From a virus: a DNA stretch of 55,772 bases. The DNA is taken from IMG/VR virus record IMGVR_UViG_3300029448_000049, positions 1-55,772 of that record; one strand, 5' to 3'. Shown in pieces: positions 6,450-30,031 of this stretch; position 1 is the stretch's first letter; each line of letters opens with the position of its first letter. The translations under genes were made by a program, and so were the position numbers. The notes beneath the pieces were generated by a model. That model had not been told where the DNA came from. It searched no databases and saw only the letters and a program-made list of their open reading frames with translations.

Positions 6450-9400
6450 ATGTCAGTAGATTTCCAATTATTTAAAGAAAACTTAAATAAAAGAGGCCTT
6501 AATTGGTCTGACCAAAAAATACTAGATTATATTTCAGTTCAAGAAGACAAAAAAATTACTCAACCTATTATGCAAAGTGATTTAGGTGGAGAAATATTTA
6601 ATATTGTTAAAAAGTTTGAATATAATGATAGTGCTCGTTCACAAAGACATAACAACCCAGGTGGCCATACTTGGAATTTAGAAAGAGAAGCTAAATATGG
6701 CGCTAAGAAGGGTGAGTCATTCCAAAGTCAAGATGAGTACGGTAACAAAATGACTTTGTATACTGCTAAATACGATACTTATGAGCAAGGTGAAAAAGCC
6801 TCAATTGCTGTTACTAATAATATTATTAATAATACAATTAAAAGATATGATTTAAAACCTAATGACCCAGGCTTTGGCGAAGCTTTTGCTAAAGAATACA
6901 CTAGAAATTCAGATCCTAAAGTTATTAGAAATTATGGTGGTGATATTCAAAATGCTATAAGTAATTACACAAATAACATGCCACAAACTGCTCCTCAAAG
7001 GTCTGTACAATCTACAAATATGCAAGACAAACTTTCTGCTATGTCACAAGCTTCTAGTGTGTATAAACCATTAGGTTATGAAGAACCAAAAGGTGCTGCT
7101 GCTGACTTTATAGGAAACTTTCTTTGGAATGCTGCTGACTTAAGTACTTTTGGTTTATTAGATTATTTAGACGTAGATGAATTTGTATTTGGTAAAGAGT
7201 ATGGAGAAGAACCAGGGCAAGCAGCTCCATCTACATTTGCAGGCAGAGTAGGTGCTGGTCTTGGTGGTTTTGCTGGATTTTTAACACCATTTGGCCTTAC
7301 TAAAGGTGCTGTAGGTGCAGGGATTAAAGGTTTAAGTAAATATGGTACTAGTGCAGCAGCTAAAAATATAGCTAAAGAAGGTGCAGAGTTTCTAGGTAAG
7401 AAAGCTGGCGTATCAAAACAAGGTTATAAAAAGTTTCAAAATTTACCTATAAAAGAACAAAACAAATTTATGGACTTTTTGTATGGTGAAGGGATGACAG
7501 CTTCTGCAGGTATGACTTCAATTGCTAGTAGTATTGCCAGTAAAAAAGGTAAAGATTTATTTGTTAAAAGCTGGAATGAGGGAAGCAATAGAATTATAAG
7601 AGAACAGTTTAAAAAATATGGCATAAGAGCTACAGATTCTAATGTTAGTCAAATTAAAAATATAGTAGATAAAACATTAGGTTTAAGTAACAAATCTGTT
7701 CAGCCTATTACAAACTTACAGCAAAGAATAGCAATAGCGTTAGGTGGAACTCCTGGAGCAGGAAAATTAGCGACAATAGCTTCTCATACAATTGAAGAGG
7801 GTTTGCTATTTGCTATGGTTGAAACTCCAATGGAATTTTTTCAAGCATTAGACCAAGAAAGAGAGTTTGATTTTACAGGTAGATGGAAACATGCTTTCTT
7901 ATTAGGTAATGCTTTAGGTGCTGCTAAAATGATACCTGGTGGATTAAAAATGCCAGATGGTCAAGACTTTAAAATAGGTAGAAATGTTCTTAAAAGATGG
8001 CAATTAGCAGGTAAAAATAAAAAACCATACTCTACTTATTTAACTGATACTCAAAAACAAAGAGATCATTTAGTAGTTATGGCTAGGTCATTATTTAAAA
8101 AAGTTAAAAATAAAAGTGAATTTAGTGACGATGTTATTACTACTTTAGATGATATTAAAGTTTTAGGTCAAACAAAAGCTGGTGGAGATAAATTAAAGAA
8201 AGTTTTATCAAACTTAGAAAAGAATTGGACAGCAAGGTGGAATAAGGATTTTATTAAAGAAGTTTCTAGTGACTTAATAGGGTCAACACCAAGAATGCTA
8301 GCAGGATCTATGGTTTTTAACTATGAAGTAGTATTTGCTGAAGAAGTTCCATTAGAAGATAAAGTATTTAATTTCTTATTAGGTGCATTTATGACTAAGC
8401 AAGGTAAAAGAGTTGACTATGTTTCTCAAACTGGTAAAACAAAAACATTCTTTGCTGAAAGACATAAAGATGTAGGTAAAGATTTTATTGATGCAAATAC
8501 TTATCTAGATTTACTAGGTATTAATCCTAAAGTATACAATGCTCAAGCTCTTTATAATGCTTCTTTAATTGAAAGAAAACATTTAAGAAATCTTGAAATG
8601 AATGAAGACGTTCAAGGGTTAATTAAAATATTAAATTCTGAAAACCTTGTTATTAAAGATGATGGAACACCTATAAAAATAGATAAAAATGCAGCTGCAG
8701 AAGGAGAGTTTCCTATATACGAAGCTATGCAAAATATATTTGACGGCTATTTATCTGGTTCTGGTGAAAGAATGAAAGGTCCTACTGAAATATCTAAAGA
8801 TGCTGTTAGAAAGTTAGAGAAAAAATTAGCTGAAACAAACTTTAAGGCTGCAGAAAGAGGTATAAGAGATGTAAATCATATAGATGATATAATTTATGAT
8901 GCGGCAGACACGGCTATGAAAGATGTTATTAATACTCATTTATTAGCAGCTAATGAAATTTATAATCACTTAGGTGGTAGACAAAATAGAGTTATACAAG
9001 AGCCTGGCGAAACAGCTTCAGGGAAAAAAATTCTTCCAGATTATTTACCTATTAGTATAGAGGCGGGAGAAACTTTAACTGCAGAAAATAGAATTGTACT
9101 TGATAAGTATAACAGAATAGTTAAAACTCTTAATGGAAGACAGTTGCAGTTTAATGAAAAACATCCTAAACCTTTAAAAGTTAAAAATGAAGATTTTCAA
9201 GGATTAAAAGAAAAAATTGAGTCTTATGATATGAAAGTGGATGAATTAGTTAATGGTACTAGACAAGGGCCTGAAGTTGGTAGAGCTTATGGATTGATGG
9301 AAGAAGGCTACTTAATGGACTTAATTATGCATCAAAACTTTTATCGAGGAGTAAGACAAATCCATAACAAAATGACTGATTTTGACAGTGTTTTATGGGG

Positions 9401-12400
9401 TGATTTTTCTGGTTCTCACGATGGTAAATTAGCAAAAGATTTAATAGGTAAATTATTTATAGGTAATGATAGTGTTTTAATCTCTGAATTTAGCACAAAA
9501 GGTTTAAGTACAACAGATGCTAGGTTTGTAGGTTCTTTATTAAATTTATTAAGAACAGATCCTAATTATGAACAAAGAATACTAACTAATACAGGTTCTA
9601 AAGTTTCTTTTACTACAGAACAAATAAGAGATATTAAATCATTAAGAAAAGTTTTTAGAGACAATAGTATGGAACCTTCTTTAATTAGTGGCGATGTTAT
9701 GGAAAGCAGAATGTTTGAATCTATATATTCAGAACGTGCAATGGATGTTTTCTTTAAAGGTGCTGTTAAAAAAGATGGAACTATTTTAAACTCTACTGAT
9801 AGAAAAGTTTTAAGTAAATTAATGGACTTTAAATTATTAACTCCTAATATGGATATGGTAGAAATTATAGGTGTTATAAATCAAATGTCATCTCAGCTAA
9901 GTAATATTGACTTAAAAAAATTAGACTTAAATAGTAATAATAAAATGGGAAAAGGTTGGAGAGTAGTTGTAGATACTATTTTTAAAAATGAACCGACTAT
10001 GGATAAGCTTTTTGAACAAGTTGCAATTGAAATGGGTATTGAAAAACAATTTTTAGCAGCAGAATTATTTAGAAATTATAAAGATGTTATAAGTCCATAC
10101 TTAGTAACTGTTAATCCTAAAACTCAAAAACAAACAGGGTTTATAAAAACTACTTCAACAATTGCTTCTTTAAGGCCAGATCAATTATCTGAAATTATAC
10201 AACAAGTGTCTGCAGTTAAAAAATCTATGGACAATGTATTGCATGATAGTTTTCTTTCTAAATTAGATGCTATTAAAAACAATTCTAAGTTTGATTCAGA
10301 AACAAGAGAAACTCTTAACTGGATTCATCAAATGTATAACAACAGATCTGTAAATAGCAATGAAGTTATAGAGGCTTTAAGGAAAAAGGGTTATTATGAT
10401 ATTATGAATGATAAATTAATAATAGACCCTCTTAACAAAGATTTAAAGAAAGACATGCAAGAAATTTACGATAGAATGAAATTTGATATAGCACAAGGGT
10501 CTGAAGTTGCAAACCTAGAATCACAAATGAATCATTATAGAAGTACTATGAGTAAAGCTTCAGATATAGATTTATATAAATCAGTAACAAGAGATGCTTT
10601 TAAGCAAAAATATAGTTTAGATAAAGACTTTGATTTTTCTAAAGATACTAGTCGTGAAAAACTGATAGAAGATTCTAGAATTTATGACGAAAGTGGTAAA
10701 GAGTTAAAGTTTGAAGATATGAACAGCTCTCAACAATTTGAACTTATGAATGATATTCAACAATTAATTTTAGGTTCTAGAAGTCAAGTTAATGTTCAAA
10801 GACTATCAATTTCAGAAGGTTATGGTGTACATACAGATTTTAAACATACAGTTATGGATAATCATGTATTTAGAGAAATAGTTGAAATTTTTGGTAAAGA
10901 CTCTTTTGCAATTGTTGATATGCTAGTTGCAGGTAAAAACAATAGATTAGTAAATGCTCGTGGAAATCCTAAAATGATGAGTGAAATTATAAACAGAGTA
11001 GCTTTATCTAAAACTAGTATTGACAACAAGTTAAGAACAGACGAGTGGGGTACTTTAGTTCACGAAAAAGGTAATGGTCATATTGTAATAAAGTTAGCCG
11101 ACCTTTCTTGGGGTATAGGTGTTAAAAGAGAAAATGTTCCTAAAATACTTGAGTTATTTGAATCTAAAGTAAATGAATGGGAATCAACTTATAAAGACGT
11201 ACCAAAAAGTGTATTTGATTCTTTAAAAGAAACTCTAAAAATATCTACTAAATCTAAAAAGCCAATCTTAGATAAAGATAATAAAGAAACTGGTAAATTT
11301 GAATATGAATGGGATTTACCTGATGCTACTATACAATCTGAAAGATTGCAAACTATGTTCTCATTTATGTTTATGGATAAAAATATGGGTAAACACTTTT
11401 GGGAGCATATGAAAACAGAAACTCCTGAAAGTACAGCAAAATATGCAGGTAGATTAAGATTGTTAGCAAACACTGCTATGAAAGAATTGTCTACAGATTA
11501 CATAAAAGAAACGTATGATTTTTATCGTACTCATGCTTCTAGTAAAAAAATTAACCCTGAAATGATAAAAGGTTTAAAAAGAATTAATGAGAATGAAGGT
11601 TTAAAGATTATAGTAGCTGCTGATGAACAGTTTACTACTGGTGAACTTACAAAAGGTAAGTCAGCCAACATATTGCAAGAATTAAAAGCTCAAATAGATG
11701 CTGAAACTAAATTTGATAGTAAAATAGTAAATGAATTTGGTGACAATAACAGAACATGGGCTGGTGGTGGAGAAGTTAGTAAATACGACTCATATATGGC
11801 TGTAGGTACAGAAACTATGCAAGCATTGTACGCATTGTCAGGAGCTGCAAATACTCCTGGATTAGGTGGAATAAAACCTATTATACACAGAGTAGGTAGT
11901 AATGTTATTATAGGTAAAACAGCATTTGTAGCAGACCCTAGATTAGATGGTATGCTTAAAAAGAATAACCTTGATGCAGTAATGTTTGGTAGTGCTTCTA
12001 AAATACAAGATAAGAGTAGGTTTTTTACTGAATGGGAATCTTTTGATGATTTAGCTAAACTTAACTTAAAAGGTGGTAAAAAAGTCGATATGTCAAAACA
12101 TGTTGAACTACTTAAAGGTGAAGATATTTCTATAGGTTCTATCGTTAATTCAGATCATAACGCTACAATATCACATTCTGCATTAAATCATTTAAGTGGT
12201 GGAGCATCAAGAAAAGCATTTAATTGGCTTTTAAGAGATAATTTAGAAAACTTAATTAAAGAGTCTGATAAAAAGTTTGACTCTAATAATTTAGTAGATG
12301 GTTTAGCTTACAGTAAATACTTAATGGAAAATATGAGTGTTAAAGATAATGCTTCTTCTTATAATAGATGGATAAAAGCTAATGGTTTACCACAAATATC

Positions 12401-15400
12401 AACATTTTCTAATCAGTTTAGAAATCAATTAAAATCAAATTTAATAGATAAACCTGGTATACTAAGTATGAAAAGTTCTATGGGTGGACAATCTGTTGTG
12501 TCTCCTGGAGAGAAACTTTTGTTTACAACATTTAGAGAAAAATCAGACGGTACTCGTGAAGTTAATACTTATGGTGAAGCTGAAATACCTTTTATCTCAG
12601 GAGAAAAACTTATTGATGTAAATAACTTACATTTTGTAAAAAGAAACTCTAAAGGTAAAGATAATATTATTACTTTAAAAGAATTTGAAAAAGAGACAGG
12701 TAACACTAGTATTGCAAAAGGTGATAGATTAGTAGATGCTTTCTTAAAGATAGCAGATAATAAAGACTATCAAATTATGGCTAATTTTAGAAGAAATCCA
12801 CACACTAGACCTGGAGATGTAAGTTCTATAGGTATTAAAAATATATTAGCTGAAAACTATGGTAATCAAGTTAAATTAAATGCTTATGATTTTGCTATGC
12901 GACATGAAGGTGACTTTGATGTAGATAAATTAGACTTTTGGTGGAACACCCCTAAAGAAGTTGTTAAAGAATGGGATGCGTTATCTGGAAGAGTTTTAAG
13001 AGTTAATCCTGATGGGCCTAATCAAAAAACTAGTCTTCCTAAAAATCTATCTTTTAAAGACGCTGCAAGTATGAATAAATTCTATGAAGGTGACTATATA
13101 GCTCAAACTATAAGAGGTGTTATTGTTAAAACTCCTAGACTTTTAAATGCTTTAAAACATTATAGTTCTGGTGGTGCTATGAATACAGAGACAGGTAAAG
13201 CTTTTGCTGGTCTTAGTCTTAGAATAAAAAGTGCTGAAGGTGGAGGTAAACTGTATATTGATCCAGTTAAAATGGAAAAAACTTTAGATCAATTAGCTAC
13301 TGACATTCAAAATATAACAGATTCTAGACAGGGTTACAATGCTGAAAAGTATAATACTCAATGGTTTGATAGAGTACTATTTGGTGATTCTGAACATGGT
13401 TACGAGGGTGTGTTTAGTAAAGCTACATTTAATACTGAAGGTAAGTTTAAAAACACTTGGACTCCTACTATAGCATCTCATGAATTTACAGCTACAGAAA
13501 AAGCAGTTATAAAAGCAGTTATAGAACCTTACTCACATTTATTAGGTTTGGCTACTGGTAAGTTTTCTACTGGTAAAAGAGAAAAAATAAGTTATGATGA
13601 TATTTTATCTCAAACTAGAACATTTGATTCTCAAATGGCTAATTTACCTCAATATGTTTATTGGAAAGTAACGAAACAAAAAGGCATTGACAAACAAGAG
13701 TTAAACAGAATGTTTGATAGAGATAAAGGTAAAGGTTTCTTTAATCCTTTTGGTAATTTTGGTGACGCTATAAGACCTAACTTAGCTAGAGATACTAGAG
13801 CTACTACTAAATGGATGGATAATCAATTACCTTTTGAAAGAGCTATGTCAGTTATATCTTATCATGATAATATGAAATTAGAATCGCCTGGCAGAATCGG
13901 TGGTGAAATGTTAAGCGAGTTTAAAGCATTTAGTGAAAAAGGTATGTATAGTGAAGATTTTAGTAATACAGCTAAAGATTTTATAACTGAATTAAATAAA
14001 AATAATAAGTTCTTAGGTTATGTAAACTATCTTGATTTTAGAATAAGAAGTCAAGAAAAGGCTAGATATGCTGCTTATGGTAAAGATAATAAACCATATG
14101 CTGAATACTTAACAGAAGAAATTTCTGTATTAAAGAAACAAAAATCTGAAATAGAAAATCAAATGATTCTTGGTGAGTCTGGTCAAGCAGCTCCATGGGC
14201 TAAAGGTATAAGAGAAGCCTCTAAAAGAAAACTTGTTGACGATATGATTAAAGAAAAAAGAGCACCTAAAGGGTGGGCAGAAGGTGAACTTCCTACTAGT
14301 TTTGATTATGCTACAGTCAGCGCTTGGGCTAAAAGAAATGATAATGCTTTAAATAAATATGTTGGTAAAAACAATATTATACGCGTTGAAGGTGTAAGTT
14401 CTATGGAACAACTTGAAAGATTAATATGGTTTAATTCTTTTGATAGGTATAACAAAATATTTATAAATGAAACTATTCAAGACAAAAGAATGTCAGAAGA
14501 CTTTGAAAAAGATATAAAAGATTTTAAAAGTTATTACAGAAATACTTGGAAAAACAATTTTAATGGACAAGAGTGGTATATGGATGCAACTCGTTCTAAT
14601 ACAGTAATAATGGACAAACTAGAAAGAAAGTTTTCAAAATGGCAAGCAGAAGGTGGTTATGGTCAATTATTCTTATGGAAACTTATGTCTCCAGAAACAG
14701 AGTCTTTTAAATTTACTTATGTACATGACAGATTAACACCAGCATTCAAAAAAGAAAGCTTATCTATGATCAGATTAGGTTTAAATTTTATTTCTGGTGC
14801 AGATAACAAGTTATTTACAGAATTTAATAAAGATATGATATTCTCTCATCTTTCAGGGCACGTAAACAACTCTTTAAGAGCAATTTATGGGCTACCTGGT
14901 GAAAGAGGTACTGTAGTGCATAATACTATGTCAAATGCAGCAAATATGAAACATGACATATTTAGAGGGTTTCCTTTAGTTGACGATATAGCTACTTATA
15001 ATTTTAGTGATTGGTCTCCAAGCTTTCAACAAAAATACATAAATCCAGGAGTTTCTAGTTTATTTGGATTTGATGGAGCTAATAAAAACATTGCTTATCA
15101 CATGTCATCTCAACCTTTATTACCAAGTTTTGCAGCTGAAATGGCTAAAGCAAGCTATTTACACTATATGCCTGTTGGATATATACCTGAATTTGTTGGC
15201 GCTACTAAGTATGGTGCTATAAATGGTGGACAAAGTTATTTAAGAGCTGTTGAAAATGGTTTTCAAATAATGCTTGGAGATGCAGTAAAACAAAATTTAA
15301 CTTATGGTGGTCCTAAAAGAGTTGTACATAGACAACCTTATGAAGGCTTACCACCAGTGCCTGCATCAAGTGGTGCTGAAAAATTAAAAGGTATAACTAA

Positions 15401-15425
15401 TTCAAAAGTAGGAGGTGAGTGCTAA
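6450..15425 (+). CDS. Giant ejection-type virion protein with N-terminal muramidase-like domain, 2,991 aa
   Basis: AGAGG precedes ATG. Residues about 45-175 resemble phage cell-wall-degrading domains of the lysozyme-like type found at the head of injected proteins: RSQRHNNPGG, then a Y-T---G motif (KYDTYEQGEKAS) and FAKEYTR. This would open peptidoglycan during DNA entry. Residues 215-300 are hydrophobic and Gly/Ala-rich and could form membrane-inserting helices. The remaining 2,600 residues are mostly helical and lack recognised enzyme motifs. By position and architecture it is an analogue of T7 gp16, but about twice as long. It ends in a TAATG junction with the next gene. The coding sequence is intact over 9 kb, so it is under selection. 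Confidence 0.75.
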   Translation: MSVDFQLFKENLNKRGLNWSDQKILDYISVQEDKKITQPIMQSDLGGEIFNIVKKFEYNDSARSQRHNNPGGHTWNLEREAKYGAKKGESFQSQDEYGNKMTLYTAKYDTYEQGEKASIAVTNNIINNTIKRYDLKPNDPGFGEAFAKEYTRNSDPKVIRNYGGDIQNAISNYTNNMPQTAPQRSVQSTNMQDKLSAMSQASSVYKPLGYEEPKGAAADFIGNFLWNAADLSTFGLLDYLDVDEFVFGKEYGEEPGQAAPSTFAGRVGAGLGGFAGFLTPFGLTKGAVGAGIKGLSKYGTSAAAKNIAKEGAEFLGKKAGVSKQGYKKFQNLPIKEQNKFMDFLYGEGMTASAGMTSIASSIASKKGKDLFVKSWNEGSNRIIREQFKKYGIRATDSNVSQIKNIVDKTLGLSNKSVQPITNLQQRIAIALGGTPGAGKLATIASHTIEEGLLFAMVETPMEFFQALDQEREFDFTGRWKHAFLLGNALGAAKMIPGGLKMPDGQDFKIGRNVLKRWQLAGKNKKPYSTYLTDTQKQRDHLVVMARSLFKKVKNKSEFSDDVITTLDDIKVLGQTKAGGDKLKKVLSNLEKNWTARWNKDFIKEVSSDLIGSTPRMLAGSMVFNYEVVFAEEVPLEDKVFNFLLGAFMTKQGKRVDYVSQTGKTKTFFAERHKDVGKDFIDANTYLDLLGINPKVYNAQALYNASLIERKHLRNLEMNEDVQGLIKILNSENLVIKDDGTPIKIDKNAAAEGEFPIYEAMQNIFDGYLSGSGERMKGPTEISKDAVRKLEKKLAETNFKAAERGIRDVNHIDDIIYDAADTAMKDVINTHLLAANEIYNHLGGRQNRVIQEPGETASGKKILPDYLPISIEAGETLTAENRIVLDKYNRIVKTLNGRQLQFNEKHPKPLKVKNEDFQGLKEKIESYDMKVDELVNGTRQGPEVGRAYGLMEEGYLMDLIMHQNFYRGVRQIHNKMTDFDSVLWGDFSGSHDGKLAKDLIGKLFIGNDSVLISEFSTKGLSTTDARFVGSLLNLLRTDPNYEQRILTNTGSKVSFTTEQIRDIKSLRKVFRDNSMEPSLISGDVMESRMFESIYSERAMDVFFKGAVKKDGTILNSTDRKVLSKLMDFKLLTPNMDMVEIIGVINQMSSQLSNIDLKKLDLNSNNKMGKGWRVVVDTIFKNEPTMDKLFEQVAIEMGIEKQFLAAELFRNYKDVISPYLVTVNPKTQKQTGFIKTTSTIASLRPDQLSEIIQQVSAVKKSMDNVLHDSFLSKLDAIKNNSKFDSETRETLNWIHQMYNNRSVNSNEVIEALRKKGYYDIMNDKLIIDPLNKDLKKDMQEIYDRMKFDIAQGSEVANLESQMNHYRSTMSKASDIDLYKSVTRDAFKQKYSLDKDFDFSKDTSREKLIEDSRIYDESGKELKFEDMNSSQQFELMNDIQQLILGSRSQVNVQRLSISEGYGVHTDFKHTVMDNHVFREIVEIFGKDSFAIVDMLVAGKNNRLVNARGNPKMMSEIINRVALSKTSIDNKLRTDEWGTLVHEKGNGHIVIKLADLSWGIGVKRENVPKILELFESKVNEWESTYKDVPKSVFDSLKETLKISTKSKKPILDKDNKETGKFEYEWDLPDATIQSERLQTMFSFMFMDKNMGKHFWEHMKTETPESTAKYAGRLRLLANTAMKELSTDYIKETYDFYRTHASSKKINPEMIKGLKRINENEGLKIIVAADEQFTTGELTKGKSANILQELKAQIDAETKFDSKIVNEFGDNNRTWAGGGEVSKYDSYMAVGTETMQALYALSGAANTPGLGGIKPIIHRVGSNVIIGKTAFVADPRLDGMLKKNNLDAVMFGSASKIQDKSRFFTEWESFDDLAKLNLKGGKKVDMSKHVELLKGEDISIGSIVNSDHNATISHSALNHLSGGASRKAFNWLLRDNLENLIKESDKKFDSNNLVDGLAYSKYLMENMSVKDNASSYNRWIKANGLPQISTFSNQFRNQLKSNLIDKPGILSMKSSMGGQSVVSPGEKLLFTTFREKSDGTREVNTYGEAEIPFISGEKLIDVNNLHFVKRNSKGKDNIITLKEFEKETGNTSIAKGDRLVDAFLKIADNKDYQIMANFRRNPHTRPGDVSSIGIKNILAENYGNQVKLNAYDFAMRHEGDFDVDKLDFWWNTPKEVVKEWDALSGRVLRVNPDGPNQKTSLPKNLSFKDAASMNKFYEGDYIAQTIRGVIVKTPRLLNALKHYSSGGAMNTETGKAFAGLSLRIKSAEGGGKLYIDPVKMEKTLDQLATDIQNITDSRQGYNAEKYNTQWFDRVLFGDSEHGYEGVFSKATFNTEGKFKNTWTPTIASHEFTATEKAVIKAVIEPYSHLLGLATGKFSTGKREKISYDDILSQTRTFDSQMANLPQYVYWKVTKQKGIDKQELNRMFDRDKGKGFFNPFGNFGDAIRPNLARDTRATTKWMDNQLPFERAMSVISYHDNMKLESPGRIGGEMLSEFKAFSEKGMYSEDFSNTAKDFITELNKNNKFLGYVNYLDFRIRSQEKARYAAYGKDNKPYAEYLTEEISVLKKQKSEIENQMILGESGQAAPWAKGIREASKRKLVDDMIKEKRAPKGWAEGELPTSFDYATVSAWAKRNDNALNKYVGKNNIIRVEGVSSMEQLERLIWFNSFDRYNKIFINETIQDKRMSEDFEKDIKDFKSYYRNTWKNNFNGQEWYMDATRSNTVIMDKLERKFSKWQAEGGYGQLFLWKLMSPETESFKFTYVHDRLTPAFKKESLSMIRLGLNFISGADNKLFTEFNKDMIFSHLSGHVNNSLRAIYGLPGERGTVVHNTMSNAANMKHDIFRGFPLVDDIATYNFSDWSPSFQQKYINPGVSSLFGFDGANKNIAYHMSSQPLLPSFAAEMAKASYLHYMPVGYIPEFVGATKYGAINGGQSYLRAVENGFQIMLGDAVKQNLTYGGPKRVVHRQPYEGLPPVPASSGAEKLKGITNSKVGGEC

Positions 15426-19773: not shown

Positions 19774-19928
19774 TATTTACCCTCCTCAGTTTTTAACATA
19801 CCTTTTAAAGCTTCAACCGCTCCTTCTATTTTGAGCATAGTTAGTTGATGTTGTTGATAAGATTTCATATAATTATCTATCATATCTTGTATCTCATCTT
19901 GTTGATATTTTACCTTAGTTTTAGCCAT
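19773..19928 (-). CDS. Small hypothetical protein, 51 aa
   Basis: The frame begins MAKTKVKYQQDEIQD, with GGAGGG eight bases upstream, inside the end of the primase-helicase gene (8-base overlap). It ends in TAATG with the HTH-like gene. The product is helical and Gln-rich. No family is recognised. Confidence 0.6.
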   Translation of the reverse strand: MAKTKVKYQQDEIQDMIDNYMKSYQQHQLTMLKIEGAVEALKGMLKTEEGK

Positions 19929-21693
19929 TATAGCCCTCCTTTTCTATTCTTACGTTATTTACTGTTAATCTTGCATAAAGATGTTCTTTTTCTCTATTCT
20001 TATCTGATTTAATATCTATAAGCTCTACAAGACCTGTTTCTTTATTCTTATAAGGTTTAAGAGATATTAATTTATTTGCATTATAAGCAATTCTAAATGA
20101 ACCTCTAGATGAAGATATGTCCATACCTTCTTTAAATGCAGCTTTACTTACCTCACTAACAGCAAATACAATTACATTTTGTCTTACTGCAAGTTCCATA
20201 ATAGCTTGAGATGCTTCCTCAACTTTCATATTGTTATCTTTTTGTTTACTCTTAAATAAACCTAAATGATCAACAATTACTATTTCTGGTTTAATAGGTA
20301 ATGCAGTAATTCTTCTTTCTAGTTCATGTGCATATGGAGCTGAATAATCTACATTTAACCATTCAAATCTTTTATCCATACCATTTTTCATTTGCTTATA
20401 ATGATTAGCTAACTGTTTTTCATCCCAGCCCATTTCTATCTGTACAAATCTAGACCATATTTGTCTAGGTGACATCTCCATTTCTACAAAGTATGTAGGT
20501 CTTTTGAAATAATTAACCCAATTTTGTAGTAACATAGTCTTCATACTAGCAGGTGGTGCTTGAATTATAACAGTCTCACCTGGATAAACAGGAAAGTCTT
20601 GACCATATGGCTCACCTAAGTTAAGTGGCTTTAGATCTTGTGCATAGAAATTAATAAGCTCATCTTCCATACCACTAGAATCCATTACATTTTCTGCTTT
20701 AGCTCCTCTATGTAACGTACATTTAGAGTCACAATAAAACTTTATAACAGCATCATCTGCACCATATCTATAACCTTGGCCATCATGACCAGTATAACAA
20801 CCTTCTACTATACCATCCATTTCTTCTTTCTTAAACTCACTTTGAGCACCTTCACTAACTCTTACACGCCAATCTTCCATAATTAGACGTACAATATTCT
20901 CTGGAAAGTTCCATCTTAAATGTGATGCTATTCTAAGAGCAACCATATGACGTTTGCCATGTTGTGCACCTTCTAACATTTTCTGTATACAAGTAGTAGT
21001 TACAGGGTCCCTAGTATTTTTAACTTTAACTACAGGTTTTTCCTTAACTTCTCCTTTATCAAACACATCAAATACTTCTTCACATTGTAAGTCTTTTAAT
21101 GGATATTCTCGTGGTTTATCACACCATTTAATTATCTGTTCTTTCATAACATCTTCATTATCTAACCATTTTTCTTGAAATTGATTCTTCCATGAGCCAG
21201 ATTTAGTATTTTTAGTATGAGGTATACGTATTAGCCTAGACTTATCAGTAACAGATGGATCAGCATATTCAAATATTCCAACTTTAGTAAGTCTTTCTTT
21301 TACTAATATGTGTAAGTTTTTGCTAGGTTTCCATTTAAATGCTGTTTCTGATATGTGTATATGAAAACCCCTACCACTAAAGTATAATTCATAAGGAACA
21401 TTTAGTTTAGTTAGTAGTTTAAGTAACTTTTTAGTTTTCTTTGAAGCTTCTAATGGATTTTCACCATCTACATCTAATATAAACTCATCAGGCATATATA
21501 TTAAGCCATCATAACCTGATAATGAGTTGTTTTTAGCATAAAACTCTACTACATACTCATCATAATCATATAAAGACATAAAAGTATCACTGTCTGTACC
21601 CATCCAATCTTCTATTTTAGTTGTTGATTGAAAATTATGTCTGTTACTAACACCTAAAGCATATTCTTTAATTAACTCTTTATTGCCTGTCAT
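19921..21693 (-). CDS. Primase-helicase: AEP-type primase fused to RecA-like ATPase, about 590 aa
   Basis: I start at ATG 21693 (MTGNKELIKEY), which has GGAGG at good spacing; the ATG three codons earlier touches that site. Counting from the longer start, residues 74-80 (FILDVDG) give the DxD metal motif and residues 109-116 (SGRGFHIH) the sGxGxHxH motif of archaeo-eukaryotic primases, followed by RLIRIPHTKNTKSG. Residues 302-330 contain Cys residues that may hold zinc. A Walker A-like APPASMKT (382-389, degenerate first glycine) and Walker B IVIVDH (474-479) define a DnaB/RecA-type motor. It should prime and unwind phage DNA. It is preceded by three tiny coupled genes. Confidence 0.85.
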   Translation of the reverse strand: MTGNKELIKEYALGVSNRHNFQSTTKIEDWMGTDSDTFMSLYDYDEYVVEFYAKNNSLSGYDGLIYMPDEFILDVDGENPLEASKKTKKLLKLLTKLNVPYELYFSGRGFHIHISETAFKWKPSKNLHILVKERLTKVGIFEYADPSVTDKSRLIRIPHTKNTKSGSWKNQFQEKWLDNEDVMKEQIIKWCDKPREYPLKDLQCEEVFDVFDKGEVKEKPVVKVKNTRDPVTTTCIQKMLEGAQHGKRHMVALRIASHLRWNFPENIVRLIMEDWRVRVSEGAQSEFKKEEMDGIVEGCYTGHDGQGYRYGADDAVIKFYCDSKCTLHRGAKAENVMDSSGMEDELINFYAQDLKPLNLGEPYGQDFPVYPGETVIIQAPPASMKTMLLQNWVNYFKRPTYFVEMEMSPRQIWSRFVQIEMGWDEKQLANHYKQMKNGMDKRFEWLNVDYSAPYAHELERRITALPIKPEIVIVDHLGLFKSKQKDNNMKVEEASQAIMELAVRQNVIVFAVSEVSKAAFKEGMDISSSRGSFRIAYNANKLISLKPYKNKETGLVELIDIKSDKNREKEHLYARLTVNNVRIEKEGYNG

Positions 21694-21787
21694 CGTGTAC
21701 ATCCTCCAAACTACTATTATACATAAGTATTAGTGTACCTATTGCAAGTATAAATATAGATAAGAATATTAAAATAATTTCTATCAT
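21680..21787 (-). CDS. Tiny membrane protein, 35 aa
   Basis: MIEIILIFLSIFILAIGTLI forms one hydrophobic membrane helix, followed by a short acidic tail. ATG overlaps the previous TGA (ATGA), and the end overlaps the primase-helicase start, whose ribosome site it contains. Function unknown; it may be a small host-takeover membrane peptide. Confidence 0.5.
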   Translation of the reverse strand: MIEIILIFLSIFILAIGTLILMYNSSLEDVHDDRQ

Positions 21788-22214: not shown

Positions 22215-22754
22215 TTAAAACGGTATCTCGTCGTTACTCTCGGAGGTCGAAGTAGTTTGTGCTACTTCTTGTGATTTCTCTATCATTTTAGGTTCAACAA
22301 ATTTCTTATAGAAGTCTATAGCTTTACCTTTCCAATAATCTACATCATCAGCATTAAATGTTTCTACTGCATTTGTAAATTCTGTTGGAGCAGTTTTAGA
22401 TAAAACTCTAGAATATTTACCATCTTTATAGAAATAAACATTCATTTTCTTACCTATAAGTGCATCTTCACTATCATCCATTTTGACAACTTTAGATCCA
22501 TCAGGGCCTTCTAATGCACTAGTTATACCAGCATTAGCAAATCTATATACTTGTCCAATAGCAAATTCTTCGCCATCAGTACCAGTTTTAGCATAGACTC
22601 TCATGTTAAAGTTTTCTGGATACTCATCAAAGTGTATATCAATACATTTAGCACCATTCCAGTCATTATATTTAGCTTTTGAAACTACAAGCTCATGCCA
22701 ACCAGTTGTATACTGATTATTAGCTTTACCTGATTTAATTGTTATTGTTCTCAT
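22215..22754 (-). CDS. SSB-like single-stranded DNA-binding protein, 179 aa
   Basis: The N-terminal 130 residues are beta-rich and acidic, of the type found in phage SSB analogues. The C-terminus is a flexible acidic tail ending NDEIPF, closely like the DDDIPF tip through which bacterial SSB recruits repair and replication proteins. It should coat single-stranded DNA for the ERF annealase immediately upstream and for the primase-helicase downstream. Coupled to ERF with an 11-base gap. The OB-fold itself is inferred, the tail is seen directly. Confidence 0.75.
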   Translation of the reverse strand: MRTITIKSGKANNQYTTGWHELVVSKAKYNDWNGAKCIDIHFDEYPENFNMRVYAKTGTDGEEFAIGQVYRFANAGITSALEGPDGSKVVKMDDSEDALIGKKMNVYFYKDGKYSRVLSKTAPTEFTNAVETFNADDVDYWKGKAIDFYKKFVEPKMIEKSQEVAQTTSTSESNDEIPF

Positions 22755-22765
22755 GTATTCTCCTA

Positions 22766-23266
22766 TTATTTACGAATTGAATTAGCATCGTCATCATACT
22801 GAGCGATACCTACTATTGCAGATAAACCGTATCTACGACCATATGTTATTGCAGCACCTACACCTTGTGCATCTACTTTAGATAAAGGTAATTTAACTTT
22901 TGACCTTAGCCATTGACCTGATGCGTGCATAAGTGTAGTAGTTACACATATTGCATTAGGAACTATTTCATTACCTTGACTAACAGATAATCCATATTTA
23001 CTAAGATGTGGAAATGCTGACTTAATTACCGCATGTAAATCTGCATAACTAGATTTAAAGAATGGATTAGTACTTTCTTTCTTAGCACCTTCTAATTCAG
23101 ATTGAGCTTTAGCTAATGCTTCTGCTAACTTATCTATTTCAGGTGATTTCCAAGAATCTGCTTTAGGCTGTTCACCTAATGCTTTTAACTCTTGTTTTTT
23201 AGTATTTTGTTTGTCTTCTAGTATTGTTTTAGCAATACCAGTTTGCTTAGATATATCAATATCCAT
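22766..23266 (-). CDS. erf: ERF-family single-strand annealing recombinase, 166 aa
   Basis: Strong ribosome site AAGGAGGAAGC before ATG. Residues about 65-85 (NPFFKSSYADLHAVIKSA) and the signature GVGAAITYGRRYGLSAIVGI followed by a DDDAN motif are diagnostic of the ERF annealase family (P22 Erf type). It promotes annealing of complementary strands for recombination-dependent replication and genome circularisation or repair. A non-conserved Lys-rich N-terminus of about 50 residues precedes the core. It is grouped with the SSB-like gene, which commonly accompanies annealases. Confidence 0.9.
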   Translation of the reverse strand: MDIDISKQTGIAKTILEDKQNTKKQELKALGEQPKADSWKSPEIDKLAEALAKAQSELEGAKKESTNPFFKSSYADLHAVIKSAFPHLSKYGLSVSQGNEIVPNAICVTTTLMHASGQWLRSKVKLPLSKVDAQGVGAAITYGRRYGLSAIVGIAQYDDDANSIRK

Positions 23267-23371: not shown

Positions 23372-24025
23372 CTATGAAACTAATTTCTTTTTATCAAGTA
23401 TTAATGTTGAAAAGTTGAAAATAATTTCTTTAAAGTATGGTTGTTTCATAACTATGTTCTTAATAGAATTAGATATAAAACTGCCACTCATATTACTACA
23501 ATAAGATGTAGCTTTACGAGTACATGGTTCAGGATCAGAGTCATCATCAGAATACCAGTCCTGTTCATATTGTTTAACAGTAATATTGTTATATATATAC
23601 TGTTGATATTGTTCTGCACCCATACGACCATCTATAACAATTGATGGCTTATAAGGGCATTGTGCTAACAATTTAACTATATCCATACGAGCAGACATAC
23701 TATCTAAACCTAATACAAGTATGTCATCTTTTGTACCAGTATAGTATTCAAATTTATGATTTGAAAGTTTAATTTCAATAGATTCTTCTATTCTTTTAAT
23801 GTGTGAACCTAAAGCGTTTACTTTAGAATTACCAATATCATCATTAACATATTGGCTAACACCTACATTTTCTATACCAACTTTATCAAAATCATATAAA
23901 TGAAACTGATTAGCACCAAGTCTTGCTAATTGTGTTGCTACAGAGCTACCAATAGCACCGCAACCAACAATATGAAACCTAATACCTGATATATCTGCTA
24001 TATCTTGACTTCTCATATTTATCAT
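23372..24025 (-). CDS. ThiF/E1-like adenylyltransferase (ubiquitin-like activating enzyme), 217 aa
   Basis: The Rossmann-type nucleotide site GCGAIGS (21-27) follows HIV; YDFDKVGIENVGVSQY gives the D45/D47 and Asn region of E1/MoeB/ThiF; NSKVNALG contains the conserved Lys (68); LGLDSMSARM has the later Asp (108). Near the C-terminus EPCTRKATSYC offers Cys168 as a candidate thioester or sulfur-transfer residue. Such enzymes adenylate the C-terminal glycine of a beta-grasp protein and may pass it to a Cys. At 217 residues it is a minimal, single-domain version. ATG overlaps the JAB gene stop (ATGA), so the two are made together. The likely partner is the 72-aa ubiquitin-like protein at 27640. 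Confidence 0.85.
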   Translation of the reverse strand: MINMRSQDIADISGIRFHIVGCGAIGSSVATQLARLGANQFHLYDFDKVGIENVGVSQYVNDDIGNSKVNALGSHIKRIEESIEIKLSNHKFEYYTGTKDDILVLGLDSMSARMDIVKLLAQCPYKPSIVIDGRMGAEQYQQYIYNNITVKQYEQDWYSDDDSDPEPCTRKATSYCSNMSGSFISNSIKNIVMKQPYFKEIIFNFSTLILDKKKLVS

Positions 24026-24969
24026 ATATTGTATCCTCCATTATAACTTATCATATCTGCATATAATTCTGCTATATCATTATATTTATTGTCAATTATC
24101 AATATTGCAAATGGATGTTCATCTGCAGCTATAAACTCTTCTATATCTTTCTTAGTTAGTTTATCTATTTGTAAACCATATGGTTCAATTATTACATTTG
24201 TATGTGTTATAGCTGACTTAACTTTATGTGCATTCCATTTACCAGATTTAAACTGACGCATAAATTCTGTTATTTTATTACAAGCATACTCATATTTAGC
24301 TTCAAAGTTAGCTGTTTCTTGATGTGTTGGCTTAATTGTCATATCATCATCTACCCAGTTATAAGTAGACCAGTCTCTATATTTGCCTGATGTAAGACTA
24401 AGTTGATTACCATTAGATGGTAATTTAGCATAACCAGTTTGATAAGAGCTTATTGATCTAGTTGTACATTTAGCTTTAACTTCTGTAAGTATTTCAAGAG
24501 GTATTTCTACTTCAGGTGTGTCATCAATAACTTTTAATTCTATATCTTGATGTACTACTACAGGTTTCCATACAGATATTCTACATTTATATTCTTGTTT
24601 TAAATTAACAACAAGAGCAAACGATACATCTGAATCACCTTCACCATACTCGTCTATACTAGATAAATCTGTACCACTCCAGAAAGCCTCCATTGTGTGA
24701 TGACTATGCCACCAACAAAATCTAAAGGTATCATCTTTATGTTTCATTGCAGCTTTAGTATAATACATAGCTAATTCTTCTTTATCAAGGTCACAAGTTG
24801 TACCAGCTATTTCTTGCTTTACAATCTGTGGATTTTCTATGTGCCAATCTCCATCTTTATCTTGTGTTACTACAGCCATACCACCTATCTCAGCCTTTTC
24901 TGTATGATAAGCAGCTTTAGCATAGTTAATTATTGTGTCCCAACTGTCTTTATGTATAAATATTTCCAT
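24022..24969 (-). CDS. JAB/JAMM-domain metallopeptidase, 315 aa
   Basis: Residues 1-150 form an MPN/JAB domain. Glu27 (EIGG) and the run HSHHTMEAFWSGTD (88-101) match the complete JAMM motif HxH-x7-S-x2-D, so a zinc peptidase should be active. JAB enzymes remove C-terminal tails from ubiquitin-like proteins or cleave isopeptide bonds. The C-terminal 165 residues are unassigned and perhaps bind the substrate. The gene sits in an RHH-JAB-E1 cluster with ATGA coupling to E1 and AGGAGG before its ATG. In this phage the natural substrate is the GG-DQ protein at 27640. Confidence 0.9.
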   Translation of the reverse strand: MEIFIHKDSWDTIINYAKAAYHTEKAEIGGMAVVTQDKDGDWHIENPQIVKQEIAGTTCDLDKEELAMYYTKAAMKHKDDTFRFCWWHSHHTMEAFWSGTDLSSIDEYGEGDSDVSFALVVNLKQEYKCRISVWKPVVVHQDIELKVIDDTPEVEIPLEILTEVKAKCTTRSISSYQTGYAKLPSNGNQLSLTSGKYRDWSTYNWVDDDMTIKPTHQETANFEAKYEYACNKITEFMRQFKSGKWNAHKVKSAITHTNVIIEPYGLQIDKLTKKDIEEFIAADEHPFAILIIDNKYNDIAELYADMISYNGGYNI

Positions 24970-24977
24970 TTAACCTC

Positions 24978-25166
24978 CTAGTTAATTTGATAGTTTATTA
25001 TGCATTGTGTAAGAAATAAATTTGCCTGTTGTGTAATGCTTCTATGTTCACTCATAGCTATTTTTTCTAGTTTATCTAAAACTTCTTTTTCAGCTATAAA
25101 TCTAATAGTAATCATTTCAGGTTTATTTATATCTCTTTTAAAAGGTTTTCTACCTCTAGTTGCCAT
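24978..25166 (-). CDS. Ribbon-helix-helix-like DNA-binding protein, 62 aa
   Basis: A basic N-terminus (ATRGRKPFKRD) is followed by a strand MITIRFI and two helices (EVLDKLEKIAMSE, SITQQANLFLTQCI), the layout of Arc/MetJ-type repressors. It may control its own cluster, which encodes JAB and E1. AAGGAGG precedes ATG and element B lies just upstream. The call is based on pattern only. Confidence 0.65.
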   Translation of the reverse strand: MATRGRKPFKRDINKPEMITIRFIAEKEVLDKLEKIAMSEHRSITQQANLFLTQCIINYQIN

Positions 25167-25184
25167 TTTCCCTCCTTAAGTTAA

Positions 25185-25242
25185 TTAAGTGTACCCTGCT
25201 CGGTTGCTGTTAACAGACGGGAGGCTCACGGGTACAACTTAA
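25185..25242 (-). promoter_or_regulatory. Structured intergenic element B
   Basis: TTAAGTGTACCC (25185-25196) pairs with GGGTACAACTTAA (25230-25242): 12 bp with a single bulged base. The interior holds the palindrome CTGTTAACAG. The outer arm includes the stop codon of the radical SAM gene. It separates that gene from the RHH-JAB-E1 cluster. No U-tract follows on the minus strand. Confidence 0.65.
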
Positions 25243-26108
25243 AATATGTATCTTATTTCTTGCCATGGTAATATTGCATTATGACTGTGTTTCCAAGCTT
25301 CTATTAGCCTACGTTTATATTGATATTTATATCTAATATTAACATTGCCATATTGAGATGTTTTTTGTTCCTGTATACCAGGCTTCCAAAGCAAATCTTC
25401 TGCTCGTTTTGTACTTTCTTTCTTCATATTATGTTCATGCATATTATGATTATGTGTAAGAAATATAACCTCACACTTAACATACTTTTTTATAGCATCA
25501 TCCACATATTTATCTACTTGTTTGAATAGATTTTGATATAATATACCAGCATCTTCTTCTACAATTACAGGTGAATAATTTAAATGAACATCATAACCTG
25601 CAATCCAGAATTTATTAACAGCTTTTAGTCTATCAGCAATAGTAGACGTGCCAGGCTCTAGTATATTAGCATACTTTTGTGGCATTATACTAAATCTGAT
25701 ACGTATTTTACGGTTAGGATTATAGTTTAACAGCTCTTCATTAACATATTTAGTAGCTGCTGTACCCATAGCTCTATCATTTCTCTTAAAATAGTTAAAT
25801 AACTTTTTCCATTCATGATATTCTAAGTGTTTTATATAGTCTTCATTACAACTAAAGTCATATGTGTAATATTTATCATGTGTTTGGTCAGGTTCTTTAG
25901 GCCATTTTAAGTTACCATTATGTGCATCTATAGTACCTATAATTTCTTTTGTATTTAACGCTACTGACAGACCTGTTTTTACATGTCTACGCATATAACA
26001 ATAACTACATTTATATTCACACCCAAAACCAAAGGAAGGCGTAATAAAATTACTACTACGCCCTGAATCTCTGATTATTAGTGCTTTACGTCTTACATAC
26101 TTAGGCAT
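25239..26108 (-). CDS. Radical SAM enzyme, spore-photoproduct-lyase-like, 289 aa
   Basis: I start at ATG 26108 (MPKYVRRKALIIRD), which has AGGAGGG upstream and overlaps the previous stop as ATGCCTAA; a longer in-frame start at 26186 lies inside the upstream gene. GCEYKCSYCYM carries the Cx3Cx2C iron-sulfur motif. Later RIRFSIMPQ and LNYSPVIV resemble the strand motifs of SplB-type radical SAM proteins. Substrate is unknown: DNA photoproduct repair, tRNA or protein modification are all possible. Co-translation with the 457-aa protein and its place inside the ubiquitin-like locus suggest a linked modification, but that is inference. Confidence 0.8.
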   Translation of the reverse strand: MPKYVRRKALIIRDSGRSSNFITPSFGFGCEYKCSYCYMRRHVKTGLSVALNTKEIIGTIDAHNGNLKWPKEPDQTHDKYYTYDFSCNEDYIKHLEYHEWKKLFNYFKRNDRAMGTAATKYVNEELLNYNPNRKIRIRFSIMPQKYANILEPGTSTIADRLKAVNKFWIAGYDVHLNYSPVIVEEDAGILYQNLFKQVDKYVDDAIKKYVKCEVIFLTHNHNMHEHNMKKESTKRAEDLLWKPGIQEQKTSQYGNVNIRYKYQYKRRLIEAWKHSHNAILPWQEIRYIF

Positions 26109-27474
26109 CGTTACCCTCCTCATTTCTTGCGTCAAGTTGTTGTCTAAGTTCTTCAGGATTCCATTGAGCATTTCTATCTTGCTCACGATTACCTTGTATT
26201 GCTTGTTCTGATGCAGGTATACTTACAGTTGGTTGACCACCATCGTCTACACTATGTATTATAGTAGGACCATGATTTACACCACCCATTCTAGTTGCCC
26301 ATTGTAATGTTAGTTGTTCAGCATCTTCTGGTGATATAGGTTCTTTATGTACAGATAAATACCTTGTACAGCTAGACCTAAATCTACATTCATGCATATC
26401 ACAATAGTCTTCTCTACCAGTTGGTTCATAACTACAAGTATCTACGCTATTTGTACCAAATACTTTTCTATATTCATCAGATAATCTACTTGGTTCGCCA
26501 TGATACATTGTTTTAATGTTATTATGTGGACCTGTCTCGTTAGTATAAGATGTAGACCAATTAATACATTGCATTACATAAGAAGGTAAATCAAACTTTC
26601 TTAGTGAAGTATTAAAGTTAGTTGCATCATCACCATAACATACACTTTGACCAAATTCATTATTACTACCATATCTAGAACCAGATATGTATGGAAATGC
26701 TAAATAACCTCTATCATCATGCTGTATTACATTACCATATGTCATAACATCAAAACGAGGATTAGTAAAACTACTATTTCTAGTCATATCTTTTAATGGA
26801 TAAGTTACAATATTTAATTCTATATCCATATCACAAGCTATATTTTCTATATGTTTAGCAGCTTCTGCACTACTTCTACCTTTAGTAATGTATATTTTCA
26901 TAGCATCTGGTGTCATTCTTAGTGTAGATACTAATTTATACCTTTGATTAGTTCTAGATCTTTCAGCTACATACATTCTATGTCTCATATATTCCATATT
27001 ATCTAAATTATCTATAAGACTTTGTGCTATCTCATCTTTTTCACACACATAATTAGAATATACATTCTTTCTTTCAACAAGAATACTTGGGTCTTCAAGC
27101 CACATTTCGCCATTATATCTAGCAGTATATAACATTCTATCTATACCTCTTAACATAGCTTGCATACTATTCCAAGAATGTTGTCTAAAATAATCTTCTC
27201 TAGACATAAAGTTATACATACCACTTGGTTTTCTATTAAATCCTAACATTTCATTAACAGCTTCAGCTACTATTTTGTAACTACCACGTTTCCATTTAAA
27301 TGTTTTAGTTATATCTAAATTAGACCTGTATCTTCTGTTAAATATGTTTACTTGCTCTAATATATCGCCTTGTGGACCAAAATAAATGTGATCACCAAGG
27401 TCTTCTACTTCTATTTCTGCCATACACTGTTCCATTGTACCATCTACAGTGCATACATAATGTGAATCTATCAT
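26101..27474 (-). CDS. Unknown 457-aa protein, possible E2-like domain plus Cys cluster
   Basis: GGAGGG precedes ATG. I know no close family. Residues about 190-320 run from a beta-rich part (AMKIYITKG, IELNIVTYP, PRFDVMTYGNVIQ) through FPYISGS to GQSVCYGDD (Cys279) and then helical segments FDLPSYVMQCINWS. That order resembles the HPxI...CxG core of ubiquitin-conjugating (E2-like) folds in bacteria and phages. Cys347, Cys358, Cys363 and Cys369 (YCDMHECRFRSSC) probably bind zinc or an iron-sulfur cluster. The C-terminus is acidic and disordered. Overlap with the radical SAM gene (8 bases) and the ubiquitin-like gene upstream make a conjugating role attractive; an alternative is a nucleic-acid enzyme working with the radical SAM protein. 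Confidence 0.5.
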   Translation of the reverse strand: MIDSHYVCTVDGTMEQCMAEIEVEDLGDHIYFGPQGDILEQVNIFNRRYRSNLDITKTFKWKRGSYKIVAEAVNEMLGFNRKPSGMYNFMSREDYFRQHSWNSMQAMLRGIDRMLYTARYNGEMWLEDPSILVERKNVYSNYVCEKDEIAQSLIDNLDNMEYMRHRMYVAERSRTNQRYKLVSTLRMTPDAMKIYITKGRSSAEAAKHIENIACDMDIELNIVTYPLKDMTRNSSFTNPRFDVMTYGNVIQHDDRGYLAFPYISGSRYGSNNEFGQSVCYGDDATNFNTSLRKFDLPSYVMQCINWSTSYTNETGPHNNIKTMYHGEPSRLSDEYRKVFGTNSVDTCSYEPTGREDYCDMHECRFRSSCTRYLSVHKEPISPEDAEQLTLQWATRMGGVNHGPTIIHSVDDGGQPTVSIPASEQAIQGNREQDRNAQWNPEELRQQLDARNEEGNDA

Positions 27475-27491
27475 ATACCCTCCAAGGTTTA

Positions 27492-27626
27492 TTTAAATTG
27501 ACTACACGCAGGACATTCTCCTGTTACCTATGATTGTACAATAACAGCTCTTCTTACTGTCTGTCCTAATGCCAATCTCACGCACCATCCTTCGCTAGTA
27601 TATCTCTAGCACCTCGTCTATTTAAA
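27492..27626 (-). promoter_or_regulatory. Structured intergenic element C, about 135 nt
   Basis: An outer stem pairs TTTAAATTGAC (27492-27502) with GTCTATTTAAA (27616-27626), 10 of 11. Inside are AGGACA/TGTCCT (27510-27515, 27562-27567), nested CTGTTA/TAACAG (27521-27526, 27542-27547), the palindrome ATTGTACAAT, and a separate 5-bp, 7-base-loop hairpin GCTAG/CTAGC (27594-27610). This is the most elaborate of the elements and could be a structured non-coding RNA, leader or processing site. It lies between the ubiquitin-like gene and the 457-aa gene. Confidence 0.6.
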
Positions 27627-27639
27627 GTTAATTACTTAT

Positions 27640-27858
27640 TTACTGATCGCCACCAGACTTATTGTTATTAACAGCTGCAACAATATCGCCATCATTAATA
27701 GCATGAGTATTAGTTACAGATATACCATTAACAGCAATAGATGAGCTTGCAGATATATCATCTGGTAACTCAGCTCTTAATTGTTCTACAGTATCAGCAT
27801 TAGTTTGTTTTTCTACAAAGCCACCGCCTTGTAAGAACTTTATTGTTTTAGTTGCCAT
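27640..27858 (-). CDS. Ubiquitin-like beta-grasp protein ending GG-DQ, 72 aa
   Basis: The frame can be read from 27909, but GGAGGT lies seven bases before ATG 27858, giving MATKTIKFLQGGGFVEK. The order is a beta hairpin (TKTIKFLQGGGFVEKQT), a helix (TVEQLRAELP), then SSIAVNGISV and a loop INDGDIVAAV, which is the ThiS/MoaD/ubiquitin pattern (the final part like NG---- L-DGD-V-). Gly69-Gly70 are followed by only Asp-Gln, so one cut would expose a diglycine end. At 72 residues it is close to ubiquitin (76). The same strand encodes JAB and E1-like enzymes that would mature and activate it. It is alternatively a sulfur carrier; conjugation is unproven. Confidence 0.8.
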   Translation of the reverse strand: MATKTIKFLQGGGFVEKQTNADTVEQLRAELPDDISASSSIAVNGISVTNTHAINDGDIVAAVNNNKSGGDQ

Positions 27859-29476: not shown

Positions 29477-30031
29477 TTATTCGTATTTATAGTGACCAGT
29501 TATCTCAAATTTAAATAATATATCTTCAATGACTACTCCATTACCACCATTATGGATAATAAGAGGAGTACCATTTATAGTATGTATGTGTGACACTATA
29601 CCTATATGTGGTAGTGTACCATCACGTAAGTTCCAGGTTATTATATCTCCTGGATTATATTCAGCGTCAAATCTACCAGTTATTGGTTTAGAGTAGCCAT
29701 TGTTCTCAAAGAAGACTCTTAAGTGTTTAACTCTTCTGTGATCTATATTATTATCAACTTCATAGGGCGTATCATATAAATGATTGTTGTTTATCATATC
29801 TTCATACACTAATTGTTGTAAATCAATACCACAACAGTCACGATAAGCTCTAATTATTACATCAGTGCATACACCTATATCTCTAGGTATATCACCGTTA
29901 GGATAGTCTATTTCATAGTAATTACCATCATATTTTACATGACTATAAGTCTGTTTAACTGCATGTGCTACAAATACATCAAAATCGACAAATCCATAAC
30001 ACATGCTTAATAACAATATTATCTTTATCAT
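29477..30031 (-). CDS. DUF1287-family hydrolase with N-terminal signal or anchor, 184 aa
   Basis: The first 22 residues (MIKIILLLSMCYGFVD) are hydrophobic, so export or membrane anchoring is likely. The body matches DUF1287 strongly: DYPNGDIPRDIGVCTDVIIR (Cys55), ID-LQ-LV-EDM, NIDHRRVKHL, NPGDIITW, HIGIVSH (His142) and IIHNGGNG. The fold is NlpC/P60-like with a catalytic Cys-His pair, so it may cleave peptide links in peptidoglycan. It is placed in the early minus-strand region rather than the lysis cassette, so it could modify the host envelope early or be a conserved auxiliary. It is coupled by ATGA to the upstream gene. Confidence 0.8.
   Translation of the reverse strand: MIKIILLLSMCYGFVDFDVFVAHAVKQTYSHVKYDGNYYEIDYPNGDIPRDIGVCTDVIIRAYRDCCGIDLQQLVYEDMINNNHLYDTPYEVDNNIDHRRVKHLRVFFENNGYSKPITGRFDAEYNPGDIITWNLRDGTLPHIGIVSHIHTINGTPLIIHNGGNGVVIEDILFKFEITGHYKYE

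Follow-up and report, generated by a model that had tools for sequence, protein, structure and literature searches.

The gene cassette and its genomic setting

The window, by which we mean the whole stretch of 55,772 nucleotides analysed here, is a contig of an aquatic phage. It encodes terminase, portal, and major head proteins, and its GC content is 32%. Read from upstream to downstream, its minus strand carries the genes for a 72-aa ubiquitin-like protein (UBL; 27640..27858), a 457-aa protein which we term G457 (26101..27474), a radical SAM protein (25239..26108), a 62-aa RHH-like ORF with weak matches to CopG/Arc (24978..25166), a JAB/JAMM metalloprotease of 315 aa with a C-terminal extension (24022..24969), and an E1/ThiF-type adenylating enzyme of 217 aa (23372..24025). 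On the same strand follow a neighbouring recombination gene, which codes for an ERF-type ssDNA annealing protein (22766..23266; Pfam ERF, 84 bits), a probable SSB (22215..22754; phrog_378, single strand DNA binding protein, E 1.3e-4), and a primase/DnaB-like helicase (19921..21702; phrog_19, DnaB-like helicase, 87 bits; phrog_16345, primase, 58 bits). Among 105 related loci, a helicase is encoded downstream of the cassette in 95, an SSB in 79, and ERF in 59, and contig ends may explain part of the missing neighbours.

A good ribosome-binding site lies ahead of each of the four core genes (UBL, G457, JAB, and E1), and the reading frames of JAB and E1 share 4 nt (ATGA). Two gaps in the operon, 25167–25238 and 27475–27639, are non-coding, the first containing a GTACCC...GGGTAC inverted repeat; a search of the operon for structured RNA returned no Rfam match at E ≤ 0.1. 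Elsewhere in the window, a DUF1287 protein with a hydrophobic N-terminus (29477–30031, minus strand; 188 bits) is kept in some related contigs, and a 2991-aa ORF (6450–15425, plus strand) and two further very long ORFs of 802 and 1340 aa are without any Pfam match.

A strict four-gene unit owned by phages

UBL, G457, JAB, and E1 are all found in each of the 45 related viral loci in which the contig extends at least 6.5 kb upstream of E1. As this set includes contigs that are nearly identical to one another, we prefer the count of non-redundant E1 clusters, where the four genes are complete and on a single strand in 30 of 30 and identically ordered in 29. A lack of such co-occurrence in related phages had been named beforehand as a refutation of the initial proposal, which has withstood this test. 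The four genes are a strict unit, and chance cannot, by far, account for this observation. All four are under purifying selection (dN/dS well below 1), which is strongest on UBL (about 0.10–0.20) and E1 (0.13–0.28), intermediate values being obtained for JAB (0.23–0.35), while G457 evolves fastest (0.44–0.62).

A search of viral contigs with the E1 from the window retrieved 38 relatives, and one with an alignment of E1s gave 379 confirmed matches, 80 of which were kept. A scan of 84,980 bacterial and archaeal species genomes, which detects E1 relatives that retain the searched peptides, gave 64 pattern matches and no confirmed relative. The contrast between 379 viral matches and none in bacterial or archaeal genomes indicates that phages own the E1, and the claim of the first-pass annotation that the UBL/E1/JAB pathway belongs to the phage is supported.

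The radical SAM gene was initially counted as part of the pathway. However, it is found between G457 and JAB in only eight of 81 loci, so it is a passenger, an occasional insert outside the core, and its membership in the cassette is rejected. The protein belongs to a spore-photoproduct-lyase-like family (TIGR03886; 286 bits against a cut-off of 437.6). It shows 88–91% identity in most phages that have it at this position and is missing from most relatives. We read it as a recently moving repair-type gene.

UBL, JAB, and E1

The UBL ORF starts at an ATG preceded by AAGGAGG, and an 89-aa version of the ORF merely adds an upstream in-frame start. An AlphaFold2 (AF2) model (pLDDT 83.8) has the element order b-b-a-b-b-b and a disordered tail. 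When this model was compared to the PDB with Foldseek, the best matches were almost all of the Ub/NEDD8/SUMO/MoaD type, including the Caldiarchaeum ubiquitin. The proposed beta-grasp fold is therefore that of the predicted structure. The closest Pfam family is ThiS, with a score (21.5 bits) just below the cut-off of 22.5.

The protein ends in KSGGDQ, as had been described. A C-terminal (di)glycine is general in this family, Gly-Gly being retained in 51 of 51 distinct homologues. Eight of these stop at this point, and the other 43 extend further by 1 to about 60 aa, with tails that differ in sequence. An invariant Gly-Gly followed by a freely drifting tail is the pattern of a processed precursor, consistent with the presence of a JAB protease in the same operon. 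Two UBLs of the window type (L107:3078-3515 and L103:674-1111) have a 60-aa extension after the Gly-Gly and form a bridge to the arrangement in crAss phages described below.

The JAB protein has the complete motif of Glu plus HxH-x7-S-x2-D (E27, H88-x-H90, S98, and D101; HSHHTMEAFWSGTD at 88–101), and its metal-binding and catalytic residues are kept in homologues. Its score against Pfam Prok-JAB is 24.8 bits, under the cut-off of 25.0, and it is thus identified via the motif and its homologues, including a profile of JAB proteins from crAss phages.

The E1 matches Pfam ThiF with 65.4 bits; among NCBIfam models, its top score is to ThiS adenylyltransferase (75 bits). Its relatives of solved structure (PDB) are UBA6, UBA5, MccB, PaaA, ThiF, MoeB, and Cap2. 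The adenylation residues, which are the Rossmann GxGxxG (GCGAIG at 21–26), Asp45, Lys68, and Asp108, are invariant in homologues, and so is Cys168 (in EPC168TRKATSYC), which is also retained in crAss-type E1s. Cys168 is a candidate for the thioester cysteine. The residues listed for both enzymes in the first-pass annotation are all present.

G457, a putative E2-like protein

G457 had been noted for a cysteine in a VCYG context and tentatively called E2-like. This residue is C279 (SVCYGDD), and it is preceded by the motif F260-P261-Y-I-S. Across 50 homologues, C279 and P316 are invariant and P261 is nearly so. The residue before PYIS is usually His, as in classical E2s, and Phe in the clade of the window. 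An AF2 model (pLDDT 85) consists of a helix, a beta-meander (160–251), a strand (276–278) that leads to Cys279, and two helices, an order of elements that, as modelled, is broadly compatible with the E2 fold.

The search for E2 relatives was negative throughout. There was no match of the Pfam E2/UBC/RWD families to G457 and its 50 homologues, nor of three Pfam E2 families to ten phage records, and a PDB sequence search for E2 relatives was negative as well. Foldseek against the PDB gave nothing at E ≤ 0.001, with no E2 among the 50 matches listed. A profile of G457 scored against four eukaryotic E2s at the level of unrelated controls, though the H-P and the Cys line up. G457 is thus rejected as an E2 by family or by fold, and structure comparison gave no PDB match from which a UBC fold could be assigned. 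With neither an E2 family nor a solved fold matched, it is from the sequence motif that we infer an E2-like enzyme with Cys279 as its active site. The tentative original call is strengthened by the invariant Cys279, the (H/F)PYIS motif, and the pairing with a crAss protein (see below).

On the C-terminal side of G457, four cysteines (C347, C358, C363, and C369) are nearly invariant and are absent from the crAss counterpart. They likely form a zinc site that might serve as an integral E3-like or substrate-binding element.

A second lineage in crAss-like and Flavobacterium phages

Matches to the E1 with 28–31% identity were obtained in crAss-like Steigviridae and in Flavobacterium phages. The order UBL with extension, E2-like protein, JAB, and E1 was found in 19 loci of the crAss/Fipvunavirus type, two of which are near-copies of others and one of which (L131) ends before E1. 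Profiles match across the two lineages for E1 (4e-37) and JAB (2.5e-32). For G457 against the profile of the crAss protein at the equivalent position, P was 0.004, compared to 0.005 for the UBLs across lineages and 0.2–0.3 for unrelated control pairs. In the crAss E2-like protein, H[SP]H precedes a C-x-G that is invariant (17 of 17) and whose Cys aligns with C279. Independently, Foldseek against the BFVD viral models gives a fold link between G457 and the crAss protein A0A7M1RZ27. In this comparison, G457 pairs with a 435-aa protein of cr128_1 and with a second crAss-like protein, both at a probability of 0.96 but at low TM-scores of about 0.2. The former is apparently the protein encoded at locus L005, which is from the same phage and has the same length.

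In the cultured phage crAss001, the cassette corresponds to gp79–gp76 and lies beside genes for primase, UDG, Holliday resolvase, and exonuclease; replication functions have been reported among the middle genes of this phage (PMC8375218). The cassettes of crAss001 and Fipvunavirus resemble that of the window in having homologous E1 and JAB proteins, the same gene order, a UBL-like N-terminus, and a protein with H[SP]H...C-x-G. They differ in a long C-terminal extension of the UBL and in an E2-like protein that is devoid of the four-Cys cluster. Most Flavobacterium-type UBLs have KSGG, whereas those from Crassvirales mostly have KxxSG-A, with one Gly rather than two, so that the exact cleavage product may differ. 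Several extensions in the crAss UBL genes at L002, L003, L005, and L134 end in a repeated motif like SRSEINKMFDFV or SDAEIDEMFDFV, possibly a docking tail that is freed by JAB.

Existing labels of the homologues from crAss001 and Fipvunavirus are hypothetical, metalloprotease, or thiamine biosynthesis, the last being also the label of the Flavobacterium phage E1; one deposited genome has a gene labelled "E1 enzyme family protein".

Relation to known systems

What is known of ubiquitin-like conjugation in bacteria comes from defence systems and plasmid cassettes. The available text of Iyer et al. (2006) (PMC1779556) covers bacterial operons with UBL, E1, E2, and JAB as well as a UBL plus JAB pair in the tail gene clusters of lambda/T1, and in that text a complete phage set is not described. 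Of the systems treated there, PRTRC (type 6d: Ub-like, JAB, E1, E2-like, and a helical protein) likewise has a gene of its own for each of four components (a small UBL with Gly at the C-terminus, a JAB, an E1, and an E2-like protein that bears a Cys), but the cassette analysed here is owned by phages and has different neighbours. It is not a PRTRC member by the respective models, the scores being 30 of the required 144.75 bits for PRTRC_ThiF and 12 of 101.8 for PRTRC_A, with no match for UBL or G457. The tail assembly proteins I (UBL) and K (JAB-NlpC) of lambda/T1 are also phage-borne (PMC1779556, same text), but these are tail genes without E1 or E2. Their arrangement is unrelated, and membership is ruled out by the location of the cassette in a replication block rather than a tail cluster.

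Type II CBASS (Cap2–Cap3), Bil (BilABCD), and Bub share the logic of E1, E2, and JAB acting on a ubiquitin-like C-terminus, and the E1 of the cassette is related to Cap2-type E1 domains. In contrast to these systems, the cassette has no E1–E2 fusion and no CD-NTase, its UBL has a single domain, and it is borne by phages and not by the defended cells. The E1 matches the E1–E2 models only partially, and there are no matches for UBL or G457, so that membership in type II CBASS or Bil was rejected. Our searches of the open-access PMC literature turned up no phage E1/E2/UBL/JAB set, and an earlier description in subscription papers or preprints is possible. The cassette represents a known logic with a new owner and with an E2-like component that has no recognised family.

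Proposed function and alternatives

We consider it fairly probable that the four genes form a phage-encoded ubiquitin-like conjugation cassette. The individual reactions are taken from the named families, and their order and targets are what we infer. JAB would remove the variable tail of the UBL (DQ in the window) to expose Gly-Gly, the C-terminus would be adenylated by E1, probably with formation of a thioester on Cys168, and G457 would take over the UBL via Cys279 and attach it to a target, from which JAB may also detach it. Several points weigh against this reading: G457 matches no E2 family or PDB fold, the clade of the window has Phe where classical E2s have His, Crassvirales UBLs mostly have one Gly instead of two, and neither a substrate nor an E3 or degradation partner came to light. 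Since the cassette lies within the DNA replication/recombination block of both lineages, phage or host proteins of replication and recombination are the leading target candidates, together with host defence proteins that may act there.

The main rival to conjugation is a sulfur carrier. JAB would again expose Gly-Gly and E1 adenylate it, and a sulfur source would then convert the UBL to a thiocarboxylate, from which G457 would pass the sulfur on to a nucleotide, tRNA, DNA base, or cofactor. QbsCDE and CysO-Mec+ work by the same logic of UBL, tail, and JAB. Sulfur gene clusters that combine JAB with ThiS/MoaD are described by Iyer et al. (PMC1779556). ThiS is the Pfam family nearest to the UBL, as is ThiS adenylyltransferase the top NCBIfam model for the E1. 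This alternative has to be taken seriously, as UBL, E1, and JAB, which alone make up known sulfur-carrier systems, suffice for it. However, the annotations around the cassette in crAss and Flavobacterium phages include no rhodanese, cysteine desulfurase, ThiG, or MoaE-like gene, the neighbours are replication genes, and G457 is ever-present with its invariant Cys in an E2-like motif. As the E2-like partner is always there and sulfur enzymes are not annotated nearby, we favour conjugation and regard the sulfur carrier as rather unlikely. The invariant Cys168 of the E1 and the linked JAB, together with a Gly-Gly plus variable tail in 51 of 51 UBLs, also speak against the reading that E1 modifies the C-terminus of a peptide or protein in the manner of MccB or PaaA, with G457 as an unrelated enzyme. 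MccB and PaaA do occur among the E1 relatives of solved structure and G457 is without a recognised fold, yet we judge this reading very improbable.

The cassette might also serve as a decoy for, or work against, the ubiquitin-like defences of bacteria (CBASS Cap2/Cap3, Bil, and Bub), for example by tagging or de-tagging host proteins. The PADLOC E1–E2 model matches the E1 with 57 bits and the JAB model matches the JAB with 29 bits, and G457 is the fastest-evolving component, as a target-facing part might be. However, the cassette has a complete enzyme set of its own, is set among replication genes, and is a stable core feature that is constant in the lineage instead of a sporadic accessory, all of which makes a role in counter-defence improbable.

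Returning to conjugation, a wider proposal is that a full pathway of ubiquitin-like conjugation, including a divergent E2-like enzyme of its own, is present in two tailed-phage lineages, the crAss phages being one, and serves to tag phage or host replication proteins during phage DNA replication, in parallel to the control of replication by SUMO and ubiquitin in eukaryotes. We advance it tentatively, at slightly less than even chances. Phages of the crAss group are abundant in the gut and dominant in many human guts. For four genes of the cultured phages crAss001 (gp79–gp76), DAC15/DAC17, and Flavobacterium phage FpV4, which are currently annotated as noted above, the proposal offers a concrete function, and the presence of the cassette in such cultured model phages makes the question testable at once. 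Such a complete set of genes, which belongs to phages, is fixed in the lineages that carry it, and was found in none of the bacterial genomes searched, suggests that phages tag proteins during infection; if this is true, viruses use protein tagging in their own cycle.
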